A stretch of DNA of 29,590 bases from Candidatus Zixiibacteriota bacterium. GTDB taxonomy: Bacteria; Zixibacteria; MSB-5A5; SM23-73-2. This document shows, piece by piece, positions 1,610 through 21,186 of the stretch. The translations under genes were made by a program, and so were the position numbers. The notes below the pieces were generated by a model. The model worked only from the letters and a program-made list of their open reading frames with translations. It had not been told where the DNA came from and did no database searches. Where the stretch lies: assembly GCA_030615745.1 (NCBI GenBank), contig JAUWYR010000029.1:1-29590 (forward strand), written 5' to 3'. How positions within the stretch are numbered: the first letter of the stretch is position 1; each line of letters begins with the position of its first letter.

Positions 1610-1694
1610 CCGATTTCCCTTTACTGTGCCCTCTTTTCTTTCCATTTTTTTATACAATCCTTTATTTTTTTTGTTCCAGTTTTTGGATATAACT

Positions 1695-2927
1695 TTAGCC
1701 AATTTTGCCCCAGGGAAAACCCAAAAGCGCCAGGGCTGTTGCCCAGAGAATAAGGAAAAGGGAAGCTGGCAGAATCATCGCATAGATTTTATCGAAACTT
1801 ACTTTAAAATAATTTTTGGTTACTATCAAGCATAGATGAAGCGGTGAAAGCATCACTCCAGCAAATCCCGCACCATAAGCAAGCATAACGTAACCATAAT
1901 TTACCCCATCGGGTGAGAGAAAGGAAAAAAGTACCGGGTAAGAAATCCCCACAAAAGCGGCGGTCATTCCAGTCAATATCCCAACGGTGAAAGGAATTAT
2001 CAAAATTGCAAAAATCGGAGAAATTCCAAAATCTGCTATGGACTTTGGTATCGTTTCGATCGCCCCTGAAACGGTTATAACTTTTTTAAAGATCATCACT
2101 GCTAAGATTAAAATGACTATTTCTAAAGTAATCGCCCTTCTGATCATTTCCAAAAATCTTTTAATCTCGACCTTACTGACCAAACCCAAGAACACAATCG
2201 TTATACCCAAAGCTAAGGCTAAGTCCATTCTGAGTGTCAAATTCAATCCGACTACTAAAAGAACTGGCCAAATTCCCTTAAAAGCTTTTCCAATATTTTC
2301 AAAAAATCCACCTTTAGTCTGAAAAGAATCTTTCTCTACCTTTATTTTGCTTGCGCAGAATAAAACTCCTCCTAAAGTCATAGCTAAGCTCAAAGGTAGC
2401 TGAGCTAAGATAACCTCTTTGTAATTTATTCCCAACAAAGATGCGGTTAATACTACTCCTAAATATAAGGGCCAGATAAACTCGAGAATGTGACGAAACC
2501 AGTAGTTAACCACCATCTTGACCTCCGGGGAGATGTTTCTTTTAACTCCAAGCTCCTCCACCATAGGAGCAGACATCATCGCTCCTGCAGGCATAGGTAA
2601 AAGCCCGACAGTAGCCGGCAAAAACATCAAAAGGAGTTTTGTGTTTCTGAATAAATTCTCCAAGCCCAAAGTTAAGCTCTCCAGGCTTTTAAGGTATTTC
2701 AAAAGCTCACCGAAAACTAAGATTAGAAGGACAATTATAAGAAGGTGTAAAGTGGGCCACTCTAAGGTGGCAACTCCCATATATTTAACTAAATCGAAAA
2801 GAGAAAGCCTAAAAAGAAGGCCCAGAAAGATTGCACCTAAAAGAATGGTCAAGCCCACCTCTATTTTCTTCTTAATCAAAAAGATGATGAGAAGAAAAAC
2901 TAAGAGTAATTTTAATAGCTCAAACAT
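1695..2927 (-). CDS. DUF401 family integral membrane protein
   Basis: A 410-residue, very hydrophobic protein with about ten predicted membrane segments. It matches the DUF401 family, with a conserved loop LPATVGLLPMPAGAMMSAPM near residue 105 and the C-terminal AFVGISYPVLFSFLSP / GVMLSPLHLCLIVT region. The family resembles ion or organic-acid permeases such as GntP/CitMHS but has no proven substrate that I know of. The gene starts just after the terminator at 2996-3022, with a possible promoter at 2951-2978. No clear ribosome-binding site precedes the ATG. Its stop at 1695 lies about 86 bases before the preferred sigma-factor start, so both may share a transcript. The link to envelope stress is only positional. 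Confidence 0.8.
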   Translation of the reverse strand: MFELLKLLLVFLLIIFLIKKKIEVGLTILLGAIFLGLLFRLSLFDLVKYMGVATLEWPTLHLLIIVLLILVFGELLKYLKSLESLTLGLENLFRNTKLLLMFLPATVGLLPMPAGAMMSAPMVEELGVKRNISPEVKMVVNYWFRHILEFIWPLYLGVVLTASLLGINYKEVILAQLPLSLAMTLGGVLFCASKIKVEKDSFQTKGGFFENIGKAFKGIWPVLLVVGLNLTLRMDLALALGITIVFLGLVSKVEIKRFLEMIRRAITLEIVILILAVMIFKKVITVSGAIETIPKSIADFGISPIFAILIIPFTVGILTGMTAAFVGISYPVLFSFLSPDGVNYGYVMLAYGAGFAGVMLSPLHLCLIVTKNYFKVSFDKIYAMILPASLFLILWATALALLGFPWGKIG

Positions 2928-2950
2928 AGCTGATTTATTGCTAACTTTTT

Positions 2951-2978
2951 ACTTTAACAAATTCTTTGGGAAAATCAA
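2951..2978 (-). promoter_or_regulatory. Candidate promoter of the DUF401 gene
   Basis: On the minus strand TTGATT (2973-2978) is followed after 16 bases by TAAAGT (2951-2956), 4 of 6 matches each to the sigma-70 boxes. It sits between the upstream terminator and the DUF401 start, where a promoter is expected. Based on matches by eye only. Confidence 0.35.
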
Positions 2979-2995
2979 TCGATTTCTTTTGAAAA

Positions 2996-3022
2996 CAAAA
3001 AAGCCGACCAGAATGGACGGCT
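2996..3022 (-). terminator. Rho-independent terminator after the FadL-like gene
   Basis: Read on the minus strand: AGCCGTCC, loop ATTCT, GGTCGGCT, then six T. The 8-position stem has one T-T mismatch. It lies 27 bases beyond the stop of the barrel gene at 3050 and ends the lipoprotein-barrel transcript. Confidence 0.85.
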
Positions 3023-3049
3023 ATTCCAATTATTATCGAACTTAAGAGA

Positions 3050-4348
3050 TTATAATCTATAGGCTGTAGTTATAAATATTTTGTTAGTGGTATATTTCTC
3101 CTTAACGTCAAGTTCAGGATATTCGAAATCATAATACCCACGGTTCCAGGCGATGTCTAAAGTCATTACTTTATCAATTAGAAATCCCAGGCCTAAAGTG
3201 AGAAATCTCCGGTCTGATTTCAGATGATTTGATTTAAAAGGCAAGGGGTCCTCAAAAAATCCAGCCCTCAGTTTCCCGCTTATCTGAGGAATCAGAAACT
3301 CAGCCCCAATATGCCATTTGAAGACATCCCTATAATATTCTTTTACATCGATATTTTTCAATCCGGCCCTGTAACCCTCCCTGTATTCTAATTGACTCCA
3401 GTCAGTATAATTAATATCACCGGCTAAAAGAAGGTTTTTAAAGTTAAATGCCCCGCCAAAAGTGAAAGAGAAAGGATGGGTTAATTTCCATCTGGGATAA
3501 CCAGTTTCTTCTATGTAATAGATGTAATCGTCATAAGAGTGGGTGGAATCGGTGTTTAAAGAATATTCTTCATCTATGGTGAGCCATACCGGCGAACTTA
3601 TAACTCCGCCAAAAGAAAAGTTTTTATTAGGCTGGATCATAATCCCGAATTTAAGATTAAATCCTGAGTAATCATCCTTGAACTCCCAGTCATCATTTAT
3701 CTCGTAAAAAGTATCAGCTACAAAGAAAGCTAAAGAATCTATATAAGTATAATTGTCCTTCCCGTTCCAGAAGTTTAAAGACAAACCTAAAGAGGTATTA
3801 GGGGAGATGTCAATTGCCCCACCCACAGACCAAACATAAATACCTCCTGATTCGGATATAAGCTCCATAGCTTCAGGTCGAGCAGTTGGACTAAAAGAAT
3901 AGATGTACTTAAAAGTGTGGTCAAAGCTTGAAACCCTGTTTACCCCAAAACCGAAAACCAGGCTTCCCCGGTAAGTCGGAATTGGAAGAACCAAACCAAC
4001 TGAACCAAGACGGGTATTGGATTGGAGCCGATCAACATTCTGGTAATAGGGATAGGAGCCCAAATTGAGGTACCCTGTCTGGTTTTTCAATCTCTGGTGG
4101 GTCATCCCCAAGGTAAACTCAATCCTTTTCACCTTTGCTAAACCCGCTGGGTTATAAACCAGAGCTTGTGCATCATTGCAAAACGCAACCCCTGTCCCTC
4201 CCATCCCCATGTACCTTGCACCCACACCGAAGAAGTTCCCTGCAGATGGCTCCTCAATAGGTTGCCAAGGCTCAAACATCTGGGAAAACGAGATTTGGGT
4301 AGTTAAGAATAAAACAACTATTATTAAAAAAACTAATCTTTTTAGCAT
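3050..4348 (-). CDS. FadL/PorV-like outer-membrane beta-barrel protein
   Basis: An exported barrel of 432 residues. After a signal peptide (residues 1-22, ending about FSQ) comes the hallmark GARYMGMGGTGVAFCNDAQA followed by YNPAGLA, typical of the OmpP1/FadL and PorV/UPF0164 group. Alternating aromatic strands fill the remainder. FadL proteins import hydrophobic compounds; PorV-type ones serve type IX secretion. I cannot choose between them. The frame extends to a GTG at 4357, but that codon lies inside the ribosome-binding site GAGGTGAG; ATG at 4348 is the better start. It follows the Tyr-rich lipoprotein by 20 bases, and a strong terminator lies downstream, so the two form a short operon. 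One free Cys sits in the N-terminal motif (AFCND). Confidence 0.8.
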   Translation of the reverse strand: MLKRLVFLIIVVLFLTTQISFSQMFEPWQPIEEPSAGNFFGVGARYMGMGGTGVAFCNDAQALVYNPAGLAKVKRIEFTLGMTHQRLKNQTGYLNLGSYPYYQNVDRLQSNTRLGSVGLVLPIPTYRGSLVFGFGVNRVSSFDHTFKYIYSFSPTARPEAMELISESGGIYVWSVGGAIDISPNTSLGLSLNFWNGKDNYTYIDSLAFFVADTFYEINDDWEFKDDYSGFNLKFGIMIQPNKNFSFGGVISSPVWLTIDEEYSLNTDSTHSYDDYIYYIEETGYPRWKLTHPFSFTFGGAFNFKNLLLAGDINYTDWSQLEYREGYRAGLKNIDVKEYYRDVFKWHIGAEFLIPQISGKLRAGFFEDPLPFKSNHLKSDRRFLTLGLGFLIDKVMTLDIAWNRGYYDFEYPELDVKEKYTTNKIFITTAYRL

Positions 4349-6384: not shown

Positions 6385-6513
6385 ACTATTGTAAGATTTC
6401 ATCCACTCACAAGGTGTCAGTTACGTATTTGAGATCGTTAGTTCCAAAAGATTTTTGTGTGAAAACTAAAATGCAAAGCTTTAGCTTTGCTATGTTAAAT
6501 AACAATTAATTCA

Positions 6514-6551
6514 GTAAACCTGCCTGTCCGGGCAGGAAAGGTTTACACTCC
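6514..6551 (+). repeat. Hairpin with ACTCC tag, nested loop
   Basis: GTAAACCT (6514-6521) pairs with AGGTTTAC (6539-6546), followed directly by ACTCC. The loop contains a smaller CCTG/CAGG stem. One of seven hairpins in the window followed by the same ACTCC. Confidence 0.7.
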
Positions 6552-6616
6552 AGATTTTGTGTGTAGGCACGCTTTATTCGTGCTTCTTGCACAGATAGAA
6601 TCTGTCTCTACAAATC
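6541..6616 (+). repeat. 76-base repeat, left copy (flanks the four-gene cassette)
   Basis: Matches 11431-11506 at 70 of 76 positions by my count, in the same orientation. It can fold as a three-way junction: TGTAG (6562-6566) with CTACA (6608-6612), enclosing GCACG/CGTGC and ACAGAT/ATCTGT hairpins. Confidence 0.85.
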
Positions 6617-6741: not shown

Positions 6742-7881
6742 TTAATCCCAACCTCTTTCCTTCAGTGCTTCTTGAGCAAATTTCTTATCCAATAAAACTA
6801 CGCCTTTTTCTAATCCGGCATCTAGTATTTGGCCACATCTTACTATAATTGCTCTCGGCTCGCCATTGGTCTTATCATACAGAAACGACACAAAGTCTTT
6901 TGTAAATGGAATTAATGGTTTGTCCTCATATCTTCCATTAACTCTGTTGAATCTTAACCTTTTTTCTATCAGTTCTCTTGTTTGGTGTTTATCAAATGCA
7001 GTAAGCAACGTCTCAGCATCAACACGATCAAGCAGTGGTTGTATTGGCCCACCACTGGAAATTTCTTTTTTCTCCATCTCTTCCAAATTACGCCACCCAT
7101 CTTCTGAGATAGCAATAAAAAGAGCAATGTTTGCAATATCCCCTGCCTCTTTACGCTCAGGTAAAAAGTCATATAGCCCTCTTAGTAGGGCAAGATAAAT
7201 ACTTTGCTGCGCCTTTGGAACTAAGCTAAATAAATACTCAAATTCATCTATAGCCAATAGTATTGTAGAAAATCCTAACCTCTTTATAAATCCTAAAATG
7301 CCCGCAAGATATTCCTTAGCGATATCAATATCTTCTATTTTTCTAATTACTTCTAACTTCTTTAATTGAGATTGAGTAGGTTTGATCTCTCCTCTAATGA
7401 AATATAAGGCTAACTTTTTTTCTTCAATCTTCCCACTACAAATCTTTCTTAGAATAGTTTTCACTTCGTCTAAATCAGCAGGTAAATCTTTAATTGATTT
7501 GTCCAATTGCCCTTGGCTTCTATTTCCTTTTATTTCTTCAAAATTTATGTTCTTAAAAATTCTAAATATGAAATCTAATCCCGGATTTTTGGGCTTTTGT
7601 TCCCCTTTGAAAGATAAATACTTCGGTAATATTGCATCATACTTTCTTGCTTCATCAATTATTTTTAATAGAGAAAGCGTTTTACCTCGCCCATAGCTGC
7701 CGATAACAAATACTATATAATTTTTGGTCGAAGAAACACCACATGAGATGATTCTTTTCCATTCTTTCAATTGTTCTTCTCTATTAACCCACGTATCTAG
7801 CCATATCTCTCTTGCTATCTTATCCAAAAACGGATTTCCACTTAATCCATATTTTTTCTCCATAAATTTATTGGGCTTCAT
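6742..7881 (-). CDS. AAA+ ATPase, Orc1/Cdc6-like (BrxC/BrxD-like group possible)
   Basis: A 379-residue ATPase. Walker A is GSYGRGKT (61-68), Walker B LLAIDEFEYLF (208-218, D212 E213), a sensor-1-like strand ALFIAISE (253-260), and a sensor-2 motif NGEPRAI with R343. The N-terminal GNPF...WVNREEQL resembles Orc1/Cdc6 and the P-loop proteins of BREX systems. Family knowledge: such ATPases load or remodel proteins on DNA. It is the last gene of the MTase/Cas4/unknown/ATPase operon, 8 bases after its neighbour; AGGTGA just before the ATG fixes the start at 7881. No helicase motifs are seen, so in a restriction-type system it might be the DNA-translocation or sensing unit. Exact subfamily is uncertain because this group diverges quickly. 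Confidence 0.75.
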   Translation of the reverse strand: MKPNKFMEKKYGLSGNPFLDKIAREIWLDTWVNREEQLKEWKRIISCGVSSTKNYIVFVIGSYGRGKTLSLLKIIDEARKYDAILPKYLSFKGEQKPKNPGLDFIFRIFKNINFEEIKGNRSQGQLDKSIKDLPADLDEVKTILRKICSGKIEEKKLALYFIRGEIKPTQSQLKKLEVIRKIEDIDIAKEYLAGILGFIKRLGFSTILLAIDEFEYLFSLVPKAQQSIYLALLRGLYDFLPERKEAGDIANIALFIAISEDGWRNLEEMEKKEISSGGPIQPLLDRVDAETLLTAFDKHQTRELIEKRLRFNRVNGRYEDKPLIPFTKDFVSFLYDKTNGEPRAIIVRCGQILDAGLEKGVVLLDKKFAQEALKERGWD

Positions 7882-7889
7882 TTTGTCAC

Positions 7890-8735
7890 CTACTTTTTAA
7901 ATATTTTTATAGACAAGGTCCGAAAGTAATTACCTTTGTATTCGAATAATTTTTCCTCAGCCCCCATCGGTCTCCCAAAAGAAATTAGATAATCATTAGT
8001 TGCAAAAGGTATTGATCTCAACATTTTATCGAATTGCTTTTCAGTTAATATCTTCTTATCATTTATCAACATTTTTACAGCCACCTTTTCTCTAAGATTT
8101 GCGATATCCACAACACCCGCCGTGTCTTTGCTAAGCTCAAAATAAGTATCGAATAAATATTTTTTAAATTTTCCAGGATTTTTAAGGGCAATATCTATAT
8201 CCGATAAAGTCTGTTTATATTGATGTGCAATAATGCTCAGATTTCTTTTGTCATCGTAATTTGTTAATCCTACCTGTTCGAGGATAGAAAACCAATGCAA
8301 TGTTCTTTCTTTTTTTTGTTTTTCATTTCGCCCATTAACTATTGAATTCACAAAAGTTAAGAAATCTTGCTTTAAAAATGAGGCTTTTTTAACAAGAATT
8401 CCCAAAAAACCAAATTTTCTTTCATCTATTTCATACACTACCGCTCTTAAAACACGTTGGTGTAGTTCATCATTCAAAGATTTACTCTTAATTATAATTT
8501 TGCCATTGGCACTTAACCTAATAAAACCTCCGTAACCAATTATGAGGCCCAAATGCCGCAAAGATGAGATAATCATTCCTCTGAATACGCTTTTCTCAAC
8601 CTTTCCAGGGTATAGAACTAAGATACACTCTTTTTGTTTATCTCTATTAAACGGATAATGATCTATACATTCTAAACAGGCTTTCAATTTATCTATTCGG
8701 TATTCCTTAATCAGGGGCATCTCTTTGGGTTTCAT
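7890..8735 (-). CDS. Unknown protein with winged-helix-like region, third gene of the cassette
   Basis: I do not recognise this 281-residue protein. Residues about 50-82 (RGMIISSLRHLGLIIGYGGF then IRLSANGKIII) look like a winged helix: recognition helix, two strands with a turn, and the usual leucine-Gly pattern. A second helical section (about 130-185) contains LHWFSILEQVGL, and the C-terminal third is mixed alpha/beta with GRPMGAEEKLFEYKGNYFRT. No nuclease or ATPase motif is visible. The frame extends to a TTG at 8765, but ATG at 8735 overlaps the Cas4-like stop by four bases (ATGA) and has GGAG upstream, which points to translational coupling. It may be the DNA-binding specificity or adaptor subunit of the system; that is inference from context. 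Confidence 0.7.
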   Translation of the reverse strand: MKPKEMPLIKEYRIDKLKACLECIDHYPFNRDKQKECILVLYPGKVEKSVFRGMIISSLRHLGLIIGYGGFIRLSANGKIIIKSKSLNDELHQRVLRAVVYEIDERKFGFLGILVKKASFLKQDFLTFVNSIVNGRNEKQKKERTLHWFSILEQVGLTNYDDKRNLSIIAHQYKQTLSDIDIALKNPGKFKKYLFDTYFELSKDTAGVVDIANLREKVAVKMLINDKKILTEKQFDKMLRSIPFATNDYLISFGRPMGAEEKLFEYKGNYFRTLSIKIFKK

Positions 8736-9742
8736 ACCCTCAACTCCAATCCTTGGTCTATACAATACTCCTTAAATCTACAATAGTAGCAATGACTTCT
8801 CTGCTCTTCAGGTGGAAATGAAGGAGCATGAGGTTTAGATATTATGTTATATGCTTCATCTCTAGAATCTATGAACCATCTTCTTAGATTATCATCAATA
8901 GGAAAAATATAAATTTGAGCGAAGGTAAGGGGCTTAACGTAGGCACTTGGATTGCGAGTAGGGAAGAAATAGATTATTCCCCAATTGATATCATCGCTTT
9001 GTCCAAATCGGTTTTCGTAAGCAAGCGCATAGCCCGCACAGCTAAGTTGATGAAATGGTTTGAATTCAATACCTGTCTTTATATCACCTACTACACCAAA
9101 ATCGCTTATTATGAAGTCTGGAGTTGCCGGAGAATTTATTCCTATTCGTTCAGGTTCTGTTCGGATCTCGGTTTTTATCTTTATATGTTTGAGATCTACA
9201 GAATCATTTTCTTTGATTAATAAATTCAAAACCTTCAAACCTAATTCAGCTCTTCCATTATTGTTCAACAGAGTCAAAAGCCAATCTGTATCACCTTCTT
9301 TTGCCCCAGTCGTGATTTCTTCAAGATTCCTTAATTTTTCTATTTTTTGACTATGAGAAGTATTAAAACTATTATACAACCTCGCCCCCTTTTTTGCTAA
9401 TCCCGAATATGTTCTTGTGATTCGTCCGTTTCCTTCTCGTGAGACTGTTTGAATGTAATTTTCAACAATGTTTCCAGCCTTTTGTCCCCACGTATTTTGT
9501 TTTGCACTTCTTTTTGGGCGATTTAAACCCTTCATGAAATATATGTCCCTACGAGTAGAACAATATTTGTCTGCTATATTGCTTACAGATAAAGGGCGAA
9601 TGGCATTTTCTGTTAATTTTGTTGCAAATTCTCCCGTTAAAAAAGCGTCTGAATTATAACCTCTTAGTTTTATATCTTGCACGCTATCTGCCATTTCTTG
9701 ATCAGGTCTAGCTAAATTCCACATTGTGATGATATGGAACAT
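8732..9742 (-). CDS. Cas4/RecB-like PD-(D/E)XK nuclease with four-cysteine Fe-S site, not CRISPR-linked
   Basis: A 336-residue Cas4-type nuclease. Visible motifs in order: C61 in LSVSNIADKYCSTRRDIYF; GQKAGNIVENYI (86-97) at the place of the RecB GxxxH motif; catalytic D209 (TPDFIISD), D220-I-K222 (a D-x-K version of E-x-K), HQLSCAGYALAYE with Q232 and Y238; and C318-x2-C321-x5-C327 near the C-terminus. C61 plus the last three would ligate a 4Fe-4S cluster, as in Cas4 and AddB. Cas4 proteins are 5'-3' exonucleases or endonucleases that trim DNA ends. It is longer than most Cas4 (about 200) because of an insert between 100 and 190. It starts 2 bases after the MTase stop. No cas gene or CRISPR array is nearby, so it is a stand-alone Cas4-like enzyme, probably the effector of the operon. 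Confidence 0.82.
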   Translation of the reverse strand: MFHIITMWNLARPDQEMADSVQDIKLRGYNSDAFLTGEFATKLTENAIRPLSVSNIADKYCSTRRDIYFMKGLNRPKRSAKQNTWGQKAGNIVENYIQTVSREGNGRITRTYSGLAKKGARLYNSFNTSHSQKIEKLRNLEEITTGAKEGDTDWLLTLLNNNGRAELGLKVLNLLIKENDSVDLKHIKIKTEIRTEPERIGINSPATPDFIISDFGVVGDIKTGIEFKPFHQLSCAGYALAYENRFGQSDDINWGIIYFFPTRNPSAYVKPLTFAQIYIFPIDDNLRRWFIDSRDEAYNIISKPHAPSFPPEEQRSHCYYCRFKEYCIDQGLELRV

Positions 9743-9744
9743 TT

Positions 9745-11160
9745 TTAAACCCTTTTTTTGAGTATCACAATATACTCATTTTTTATCAACCCACCTGTAC
9801 TATTTCGTTTGGTCATCATACTTCTGCTTCGAATTGTATCCTTTAATGTAACTATTTCTATAAATCCTATTTGGGCTGCAGCATCTGCTAATAATCTGTA
9901 AGTGTTGACTTTTTTGCCTAAAACTCTATTATCACCAACTACTAAGATGAGGTAACCTTCTCTATTAAGTAGATGATACATTTCTTTTAATGATTGTATC
10001 ATGTCCATAAAATATTTATAAACCATAAGTGCTCTTTCAAATGAGATGGATAAAGCATAATCTACTGTTGAATCAATAGATACTATACTTAAAGGAGAGA
10101 TTTCAGAATCTTTTTGAACTCTTTCTGTCCCAATTGATGCTTTTTCAAAATCATTGACTTCCTTTTCGGTGTATCCTAACCAAAACAACTCAAGTTTATT
10201 TGTTCTTATATATTTCTGAGCAGTTATGTAAGGTGGAGAAGTCAATATTATGTCAACACTATTGCTTGGTAGGTCCGTTATAGAATTTTTATCTATTCTT
10301 CCACACTCCCCCATGTAAGCTTTCTTTATACGTCGTGCGTCATCCCAAATAATTTCTGCTCCCACTATACCCTCTTTTGCTTCATTAAATTTATTTAACA
10401 AATCTAATTTCTTTTTATTATTATCCACGGCTTCTTTGAACAGTCCTAATACATTGGGATTCTCTGCATTTTTTAGATGTTGTTTCAAATATTGACACTT
10501 ATTGGGATTATTTTTGTATTTTTCGGGTTTAAGAACAACAGGTGGTGGAATATATGGATCTGCCTTAGCAACTTTTCGAATAGTGCTAGAAAAACATACC
10601 CAGAAAAAATCTTTATAATTAGTATCAACTTCTAGAGTATCAATTGCATACTTTAATCTGCCAAGTTTCTTAAGACCATTATTGGAGAACCAAATTTTTC
10701 TGTTTCTGAATTCTGGGATGTAGTTACTTACATCTTTTTTATCTTTATTTAAAGTAATGATTTCATCTGCATATTGTGAAATCTTTTCAGTATTGAAAGG
10801 CGTGGTTTTGACTTTAGAGATAAGCCTTGCTAATGGATTAATTTCTACACCTAAGGAATTTCTTTTGAGAACGGGATTCGTAATAGCCTCTAATAATATT
10901 GTGCCAGTTCCTGCAAACGGATCTAATAAATATCCATCTAGATGCATAAAATCTCTTATTGATAAAAGACAAAAAGGAATATATGGGAAAATCCTTCCCG
11001 GGTAATAATGGATATAATGAATGTGTTGATTATAGTTTCTATCTCCTTCCAATAAATTGCTTGATGCAGATTTAAAATCAAAAACTATTGGTTTCTTCCC
11101 CCTTTTATTGTATTCTTTATTGAGTTGCTCTAGCCTAAATTTTATTGTTTTCCCGCTCAT
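9745..11160 (-). CDS. DNA amino-methyltransferase (TSPPY type, probably N4-cytosine)
   Basis: A 471-residue DNA methyltransferase, first gene of the cassette. The SAM-binding motif I is LLDPFAGTGTILLEA (D80-P-F-A-G-T-G-T) with acidic GVEINP (E106). Catalytic motif IV is ILTSPPY (S308-P-P-Y). A Ser at this position is commonest in N4-cytosine enzymes, while Asp or Asn is commonest in N6-adenine enzymes. Motif I precedes motif IV by about 225 residues, so a recognition domain could lie between them, as in the alpha order. The N-terminal HYIHYYPGRIFPYIP is typical of the family. No ribosome-binding site is evident before ATG 11160; a possible promoter at 11196-11224 would leave a leader of about 30 bases. 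In the operon it would protect self DNA while the Cas4-like nuclease and ATPase attack unmodified DNA (inference). The target sequence cannot be predicted. Confidence 0.85.
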   Translation of the reverse strand: MSGKTIKFRLEQLNKEYNKRGKKPIVFDFKSASSNLLEGDRNYNQHIHYIHYYPGRIFPYIPFCLLSIRDFMHLDGYLLDPFAGTGTILLEAITNPVLKRNSLGVEINPLARLISKVKTTPFNTEKISQYADEIITLNKDKKDVSNYIPEFRNRKIWFSNNGLKKLGRLKYAIDTLEVDTNYKDFFWVCFSSTIRKVAKADPYIPPPVVLKPEKYKNNPNKCQYLKQHLKNAENPNVLGLFKEAVDNNKKKLDLLNKFNEAKEGIVGAEIIWDDARRIKKAYMGECGRIDKNSITDLPSNSVDIILTSPPYITAQKYIRTNKLELFWLGYTEKEVNDFEKASIGTERVQKDSEISPLSIVSIDSTVDYALSISFERALMVYKYFMDMIQSLKEMYHLLNREGYLILVVGDNRVLGKKVNTYRLLADAAAQIGFIEIVTLKDTIRSRSMMTKRNSTGGLIKNEYIVILKKRV

Positions 11161-11354: not shown

Positions 11355-11441
11355 GTAAACCTGAAGGTTTACACTCCAGAGCTATTTGGAGTATAAAGCT
11401 TCAGCTTTATCTTATTTGTAAATCTAAAAAGTTTACACTCC
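11355..11441. repeat. Three ACTCC-tagged hairpins in a row, mixed orientation
   Basis: GTAAACCT-GA-AGGTTTAC then ACTCC (11355-11377); the reverse arrangement GGAGT then ATAAAGCT-TC-AGCTTTAT (11388-11410); and an imperfect GTAAA...AGTTTAC then ACTCC (11418-11441). Stems differ while the five-base tag is constant. Confidence 0.75.
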
Positions 11442-11506
11442 AGATTTTGTGTGGAGGCTCGCATTACTCGTGCTTCTTGCACAGATAGAATCTGTGCCTA
11501 CAAATC
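11431..11506 (+). repeat. 76-base repeat, right copy (flanks the four-gene cassette)
   Basis: Direct-orientation partner of 6541-6616, with six differences. Its second stem is lengthened to GCACAGAT/ATCTGTGC (11479-11486 with 11490-11497). On the minus strand it lies just after the stop of the TPL-like gene. Confidence 0.85.
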
Positions 11507-19871: not shown

Positions 19872-19998
19872 TAAAAAGGTTCGGGGTAAGGTACCCCGAA
19901 CCAACATTCAACAGTAATACACTGGACATACGTTAATGCGTTAGTCAGGGGTGCCCTCACCCCTGACTGATTTGGTTCCGGGTAGGATACCCCGAACG
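19872..19998. repeat. Hairpin array (11-bp arms, 3-4 base loops), copy A
   Basis: 19878-19902 GGTTCGGGGTA, loop AGG, TACCCCGAACC; 19943-19968 AGTCAGGGGTG, loop CCCT, CACCCCTGACT; 19974-19998 GGTTCCGGGTA, loop GGA, TACCCCGAACG (imperfect). 19872-19907 is identical to 20938-20973 (36 bases). Confidence 0.85.
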
Positions 19999-20017
19999 AA
20001 CATGAAAAAATATAACT

Positions 20018-20155
20018 TTAATGAGATCTCTGAAAAAGTATGGTTTTTGTCATTGCGAGTCCGAAGGGCGTGGCAATCCATTAAGATTGCTTCGTCGCTT
20101 TCGCTTCTCGCAATGACATCGCGTTGATAATATGAGTTTTTCAGAGCTCTCTTAA
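20018..20155. mobile_element. MITE-like nested inverted-repeat element
   Basis: Outer arms 20018-20037 and 20137-20155 (TCTGAAAAA/TTTTTCAGA core) enclose a 69-base inner element, 20049-20117, whose 11-base ends GTCATTGCGAG/CTCGCAATGAC are perfect and which contains a further GCAATC/GATTGC stem. Inner elements with such CATTGCGAG ends are frequent short non-coding repeats in diverse bacterial genomes. No transposase here. A partial end (GTCATTGCGGGC) lies at 29497. Confidence 0.65.
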
Positions 20156-20824: not shown

Positions 20825-20912
20825 AATTTTTACCTCCTTTAAAATTTTTTGGCTTTTATAAAATAAACTATTCTGTTAAAGAAGTCAAATGTTTTTATAA
20901 CGTGCACACGTT

Positions 20913-21048
20913 AGTCATAGGCACCCTTACCCCTGACTAAAAAGGTTCGGGGTAAGGTACCCCGAACCAACATAATATACCGGGCACAGGTTAGTCAGGG
21001 GTGCCCTCATCCCTGACCAGAGAGGTTCAGGATAGAATGCCCTGAACG
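20913..21048. repeat. Hairpin array (11-bp arms), copy B
   Basis: 20913-20938 (AGTCATAGGCA with TACCCCTGACT, imperfect), 20944-20968 (GGTTCGGGGTA, AGG, TACCCCGAACC), 20993-21018 (AGTCAGGGGTG, CCCT, CATCCCTGACC, imperfect), 21024-21048 (GGTTCAGGATA, GAA, TGCCCTGAACG, imperfect). Two types alternate, as in copy A, and GAACAT or AACAT follows the second type. Confidence 0.8.
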
Positions 21049-21186
21049 AACATCAAGAATCAAAACTCTAATAGTTCTGTAATCAAAAAGAATAGAAAAA
21101 GCCTGATTTTTTGTAGCTGAATAGTTAAGATAACCTTACCTCCTTATTTCCCCTCTTCATAAATGGAGAGGGGGCTTGGGGGTGAG

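Follow-up and report, generated by a model that had tools for sequence, protein, structure and literature searches.

A horizontally mobile four-gene cassette with a methyltransferase, a Cas4a/Csa1-like nuclease, a winged-helix protein and an Orc/Cdc6-like ATPase as a probable restriction-modification-like defence system

Introduction

The window analysed here comprises 29,590 nucleotides (nt), positions 1-29,590 of contig JAUWYR010000029.1 (assembly GCA_030615745.1), from a Candidatus Zixiibacteriota bacterium, and it carries four closely packed genes that a first-pass annotation, made from the sequence alone, had proposed as a candidate for an undescribed restriction system. In order of transcription, all on the minus strand, they encode a DNA methyltransferase (MTase, gene 1), a nuclease (gene 2), an uncharacterised protein (gene 3) and an ATPase (gene 4; coordinates in Table 1). 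Do these genes form one unit, what would that unit do, and does it already have a name? Our answer, to which we give a probability of roughly two in three (0.68), is that the cassette is a horizontally mobile, ATP-dependent defence system resembling restriction-modification (R-M), and our confidence in its defence role is moderate to good.

A four-gene cassette with a fixed order in distant hosts

The operon was found as first described, with four open reading frames (ORFs) on one strand and intergenic gaps of +2, -4 and +8 nt when gene 3 is taken to start at ATG 8735. The longest ORF for gene 3 starts at TTG 8765; we preferred the ATG because the relatives begin near it.

To the window we could add six further loci. 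A scan of genome contigs for the ATPase core yielded L018 (WOR-3), L019 (a Thermoplasmata metagenome-assembled genome, MAG), L020 (Dehalococcoidia) and L021 (which groups with WOR-3), a scan of viral contigs yielded a 39-kb contig of a contractile-tailed phage (L002/L003, IMG/VR 3300050014_001317), and a search with the nuclease profile yielded L040, from a third WOR-3 genome. Co-occurrence therefore extends beyond close relatives, a point on which the first-pass proposal depended: besides the window's own phylum, it covers three WOR-3 genomes, Dehalococcoidia, the Thermoplasmata MAG and the phage. In all six complete loci the four genes follow one another in identical order, separated by -14 to +8 nt; the contig of L019 ends inside the nuclease gene, and the remaining order is kept. 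The contig on which the archaeal assignment of L019 is based is short and MAG-derived, and it may have been binned wrongly.

Identity between loci was 33-62%, but 77-84% for L018 against L019. For this pair, genes 3 and 4 had a ratio of non-synonymous to synonymous substitution (dN/dS) of about 0.09, and the available part of the nuclease one of about 0.14; genes 2-4 are under purifying selection. When about 920 genomes from four phyla were searched with the nuclease and without its partners, every strong match had the partner genes beside it. The weak matches were Csa1 proteins beside CRISPR I-A-type genes; those from Chloroflexota, the nearest outside relatives of gene 2, were followed up and set aside, their neighbours having the look of such CRISPR genes. 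The cassette was present in 1 of 132 genomes of the window's own phylum. Plasmid and phage collections gave no match to the nuclease or gene 3, and in them the ATPase matched haloarchaeal plasmids only and no phage; seven later scans of viral contigs recovered the same IMG/VR phage and no other.

Predicted activities of the four proteins

Gene 1 carries motif I (DPFAGTGT, residue 80) and motif IV (TSPPY, residue 307) about 220 residues apart. It scored 39 bits against the Pfam family N6_N4_Mtase (PF01555; cut-off 26.7), its best PADLOC matches were type II MTases (MTase_II, E=6.5e-44), and it matched a DNA cytosine-N4 MTase in the PDB (E=9.7e-4). We thus predict an amino-group MTase, with N4-cytosine a more likely target than N6-adenine, because the TSPPY motif, the PDB match and the occurrence of relatives beside an MvaI/BcnI enzyme all point to N4-methylcytosine as the product. 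Identity to four other cassette MTases was 44-60%, and to the fifth, from Dehalococcoidia (L020), 34%; the nuclease, gene 3 and the ATPase of L020 were 47%, 49% and 54% identical to those of the window. Between the L020 and window MTases, identity fell to 13-23% over residues 211-270, which lie between motifs I and IV, against 63-70% over the catalytic blocks, and in the MTase tree the L020 protein stood outside the other five with moderate support (82/99). Such divergence, greatest in the presumed recognition region, is compatible with a changed recognition sequence, a change that seven loci cannot tell from faster evolution of the L020 MTase.

Gene 2 matched Pfam Csa1 (PF06023) over residues 50-327 with 78.7 bits (E=6.7e-22, cut-off 27) and the PADLOC Cas4/Cas4a profiles at E of about 1e-21, and it fell under the stricter cut-off of NCBIfam cas_AF1879 (74.3 against 103.35). 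Its catalytic motifs are PDFII (residue 208) and GDIK (219), and its cysteines are C61 and C318/C321/C327. The pattern PDF[IL]I, GD[IV]K, one N-terminal and three C-terminal cysteines, which is that of iron-sulphur (Fe-S) Cas4 proteins, is kept in 6/6 complete loci. Profile, PD-(D/E)XK core and the four cysteines together place the predicted product in the Cas4a/Csa1 family, and it is best read as the predicted effector of the cassette.

Gene 4 passed the cut-off of Pfam BrxC_BrxD (PF10923; E=5.5e-10, 39.2 bits, cut-off 22.2) and stayed far under the NCBIfam BrxD equivalog cut-off (15.9 against 350). Walker A (GSYGRGKT, residue 61) and Walker B (IDEFEYLF, residue 211) are conserved in the relatives. 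Its structural model (predicted local distance difference test score, pLDDT, 74) was closest to archaeal Orc2 (Z 14.9), then to TnsC (Z 13.8), and showed no obvious C-terminal winged helix.

Gene 3 had no family match in Pfam, NCBIfam, PADLOC or PHROGs. In its AlphaFold model (pLDDT 76, predicted template modelling score 0.75), residues 85-200 gave modest matches to ArsR-like winged helices (Z up to 10.5) and residues 181-281 modest matches to winged helices of the origin recognition complex (ORC) and cullins (Z about 8). Z values near 8 are common among winged-helix-type folds. Foldseek returned nothing at E<=0.001, the best weak matches being MukE/MukF-type winged-helix proteins and the BpuJI recognition domain; since all of these are weak, we limit the identity of gene 3 to a predicted winged helix. 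With no winged helix obvious at the C-terminus of the ATPase, and a winged-helix protein encoded by the gene next to it, genes 3 and 4 suggest an Orc/Cdc6 protein in two pieces.

The motifs listed in the first-pass annotation were otherwise all recovered (DPFAGTGT, TSPPY, the PD-(D/E)XK core, the four cysteines, Walker A and B), the exception being GEPR (residue 340 of gene 4), which had been read as a sensor 2: relatives have GLPS, GRPS, GEPS or GNPR at this place, the arginine is kept in 3/7, and we rejected it as a conserved sensor. The motifs of the cassette are conserved in its relatives and so are not chance occurrences.

Mobility and genomic context

In most hosts the cassette has a G+C content of 31-33% against 38-54% for the flanks. 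The difference was marked in the phage (33% against 49-54%) and L040 (32% against 46%), it was also seen in L020 (44.5% against about 51%), and L019 showed little contrast. In the window, third-position G+C was 24-29% for the cassette against a flank mean of 37%. A genome of the same genus, syntenic on both sides, has no cassette and carries three other genes in its place, including by sequence an FKBP-type isomerase and a GNAT protein. Taken with its hosts, the cassette is horizontally mobile between distant bacteria, an archaeal genome and a phage.

Two 80-nt direct repeats flank the window copy (Table 1). They belong to a dispersed family with 14 matches in the host genome and 2 in the same-genus genome; the pair may mark the insertion event, because it is the closest pair found with that repeat as query. 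We rejected the idea that such repeats generally accompany the cassette, there being none of at least 30 nt around four other loci.

None of the sets of neighbouring genes showed a housekeeping role for the cassette, in keeping with the first-pass proposal; one copy is phage cargo and two adjoin other R-M genes. On the phage contig (L003, 2643-7137) it has a tail-completion/neck gene on one side and the tail sheath gene on the other, a position that we regard as unexpected for defence cargo. In L021 it lies inside a type III R-M locus, between a split Mod and Res (1622-4185 and 8506-11136). This Mod is seemingly divided into an N-terminal part and a 268-amino-acid (aa) C-terminal part, with Res downstream. 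Just upstream of the cassette in L040 (4789-6479) are the genes for a second N6/N4 MTase and for a 273-aa protein that fits no known family. They overlap by 4 nt, and together they may form a type II R-M pair whose endonuclease has gone unrecognised.

Comparison with known systems

In Pfam, NCBIfam, PADLOC and PHROGs no single named system accounts for the four genes together, as had been supposed, and we found no description of this gene set in the open-access literature. A close parallel is BREX, which pairs BrxC/D-type ATPases with MTases in defence (PMC12839542). The cassette shares with it an MTase, an Orc/Cdc6-type BrxC_BrxD ATPase with a winged-helix partner, and a modification-based logic, but it has no PglZ, BrxL, BrxB or helicase, it has a Cas4/Csa1-like nuclease, and its MTase, at 471 aa, is type II-like and smaller than BrxX/PglX. 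Cas4 goes unmentioned in the 2026 BREX survey (PMC12839542). PglZ was not found among the four genes or the scanned flanking genes; the sole match in the host genome, on another contig (G000:C47; L062, 2706-4280), is by sequence a response-regulator-PglZ (PorX-like) protein and was rejected as BREX. The earlier statement that the operon does not fit BREX therefore stands for the system, which has neither PglZ nor BrxL, and not for the ATPase, which lies above the Pfam BrxC_BrxD cut-off. The BREX-Related (BR, DUF499-centred) and BRC systems (PMC12839542) likewise unite an Orc/Cdc6 ATPase, an MTase and a nuclease in R-M-like units, but the cassette lacks DUF499, DUF6079, a helicase-nuclease and HerA; at E<=1, no Pfam match to a DUF499 ATPase or helicase-nuclease was seen in the four proteins. 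The exclusion of DISARM, McrBC and type I R-M was borne out by PADLOC and Pfam scans of the four proteins, which found no DrmA/B, McrB/C or HsdR/S.

Dpd-like clusters of haloarchaeal plasmids carry an ATPase about 20% identical to gene 4 over most of its length (E 3e-4 to 6e-7, loci with >80% coverage), preceded in the three loci examined by a gene of about 295 aa, near gene 3 in size. Homology of gene 3 to this protein is weakly suggested (weak alignment, hhalign E=0.0019, probability 14%). Modification in these clusters is by DpdA/TGT 7-deazaguanine enzymes, however, with no MTase, and no Csa1-like nuclease was found in them; conversely, DpdA had no PADLOC match among our four proteins, and the haloarchaeal TGT profile matched haloarchaeal loci only. 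They are perhaps the BRIGADE type of PMC12458937. Their arrangement recurs on three plasmids (L004 3003-10119, L005 4058-10116, L006 4040-10107) as DpdA-like TGTs, a small TGT, the ~295-aa unknown, which has no PADLOC match, and the BrxC/D-type ATPase.

An MTase about 30% identical to gene 1 also precedes an operon with an ORC-CDC6-like ATPase on Moraxella, Rhizobium, Sinorhizobium and Bradyrhizobium plasmids, but PRTase-CE and a CARF protein stand where the cassette has its nuclease and winged-helix protein, and neither gene was found in the window cassette by PADLOC or Pfam. These sets of MTase, PRTase-CE, ORC-CDC6-like ATPase and triple-CARF protein (L012 6863-12390, L014 4981-10294, L015 6875-12374, L017 5970-12181, on Moraxella and rhizobial plasmids) look like another coupled defence system; in Sinorhizobium and Bradyrhizobium thyX lies nearby.

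Two known systems resemble single genes of the cassette. Cas4a/Csa1 of CRISPR I-A shares the nuclease profile, catalytic motifs and cysteine pattern, but the cassette nuclease stands beside no cas gene, and Cas1 was not found in the host genome by a search that was positive in 9 of 14 control genomes. Among type II R-M systems with MvaI/PspGI-like MTases, Methanobacterium and Sulfolobus viruses have relatives of gene 1 that adjoin an MvaI/BcnI-type enzyme; ordinary type II systems, however, need no ATPase or winged-helix subunit and use other nucleases. The cassette is not BREX, BR, DISARM, McrBC, CRISPR or Dpd.

Proposed function and alternatives

How the cassette would choose its methylation sites, assemble, tell self from non-self and act against viruses is inferred as follows. 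The MTase would methylate its own recognition sequence in host DNA, presumably at N4-cytosine, and so mark self. On invading DNA without this methylation, the Orc/Cdc6-like AAA+ ATPase and the winged-helix protein would bind and assemble into a complex driven by ATP, in the manner of an origin recognition complex whose winged helix is a subunit of its own. The assembly would then load or license the Cas4/Csa1-like Fe-S PD-(D/E)XK nuclease, and the DNA would be destroyed. For each role in this scheme the cassette has a gene.

Several points weigh against this reading. There are seven loci only, mostly from MAGs. A setting in defence islands, which the first-pass annotation had put forward as a check, is not supported as a general feature: the flanks of the window, L018 and L020, and the rest of L040, are metabolic or housekeeping genes. 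Relatives of gene 1 also serve other systems, and the cassette MTase could be functionally separate from the other three genes. The phage copy could equally serve competition between phages. What stands of the first-pass proposal is a conserved four-gene cassette with no named match; its sensor 2 does not stand, a general defence-island setting is unsupported, and restriction and methylation are predicted activities.

In the strongest of the alternatives, the same chemistry mainly stabilises or defends mobile elements, by post-segregational killing or exclusion of rival phages, and not the cell. The copy amid phage tail genes, the low G+C content in varied hosts, the dispersed repeats around the window copy and the patchy occurrence (1/132) would all suit it, but most copies lie in chromosomes amid metabolic genes, neither an integrase nor a replication gene was seen next to them, and two adjoin ordinary R-M genes; we hold it to be unlikely. 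Still less probable is a DNA repair or recombination unit, with the nuclease loaded by the ORC-like ATPase and the MTase as an accessory. Extreme patchiness, mobility, strict coupling to an MTase of the sequence-specific type and R-M genes as neighbours speak against it, even though nucleases of the Cas4 family and Orc-like ATPases can have roles in repair and replication, and defence or repair functions have been suggested for solo-Cas4 (PMC5704561). A Tn7-like targeting module that lost its transposase, with a TnsA-like nuclease, a TnsC-like ATPase and a DNA-binding winged helix, is very improbable: the ATPase model scores nearly as high with TnsC (Z 13.8) as with Orc (Z 14.9), nuclease and TnsA are both PD-(D/E)XK enzymes and the window copy has its 80-nt direct repeats, but no transposase gene is apparent, the other loci examined share no flanking repeats, the nuclease is Csa1-like and an MTase is part of every complete locus. 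Least probable of all is a CRISPR adaptation Cas4 placed by chance beside an orphan MTase, which the Chloroflexota Csa1 relatives would favour and which the missing Cas1 and the recurrence of the same four genes in every complete locus contradict.

Features of the window

Table 1. Cassette genes and nearby features, in window coordinates.
Feature	Coordinates	Strand	Evidence
Gene 1, DNA methyltransferase, 471 aa	9745..11160	-	PF01555, PADLOC MTase_II, PDB match, cassette MTase identities
Gene 2, Cas4a/Csa1-like PD-(D/E)XK nuclease (predicted), 336 aa	8732..9742	-	PF06023, PADLOC Cas4/Cas4a, conserved motifs and cysteines
Gene 3, uncharacterised protein, 281 aa, several predicted winged-helix domains	7890..8735	-	AlphaFold model, structure comparison, dN/dS
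Gene 4, Orc1/Cdc6-like AAA+ ATPase of the BrxC/BrxD family, 379 aa	6742..7881	-	Pfam BrxC_BrxD, model matches, Walker A/B
80-nt direct repeat, left copy	6537..6616	+	91% identical to 11427-11506
80-nt direct repeat, right copy	11427..11506	+	pairs with 6537-6616
Terminator-like hairpin (weak), about 250 nt past the ATPase stop	6473..6490	-	7-pair stem, then T-rich tail

Terminator-like sites numbered 6 in the region against 2.9 expected. The promoter scan showed no excess (23 sites against 22.0 in shuffles), and an Rfam search of the window gave no match. A second family of short repeats with palindromic units (GTTCGGGGTA...TACCCCGAAC) occurs at 19872-19907, 19940-20022 and 20910-21072, likely between genes.

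Implications

The cassette might even represent a distinct class of R-M, in which unmethylated DNA is sensed by an Orc/Cdc6-like AAA+ assembly with a separate winged-helix subunit, which then loads a Fe-S nuclease of the Cas4/Csa1 type, combining parts of replication initiators and CRISPR adaptation and spread over bacteria, archaea and phages; this stronger claim is tentative, and we put it at somewhat below even odds. What ORC-like ATPases of the BrxC/BrxD type contribute to defence is still an open question for BREX, and if the defence reading is true, the cassette would offer one of the smallest settings for asking it. It would then also be a restriction system of only four compact genes, not recognised as a system by PADLOC-DB 2.0.0, in which a nuclease of the Cas4/Csa1 type serves as the restriction effector outside CRISPR.

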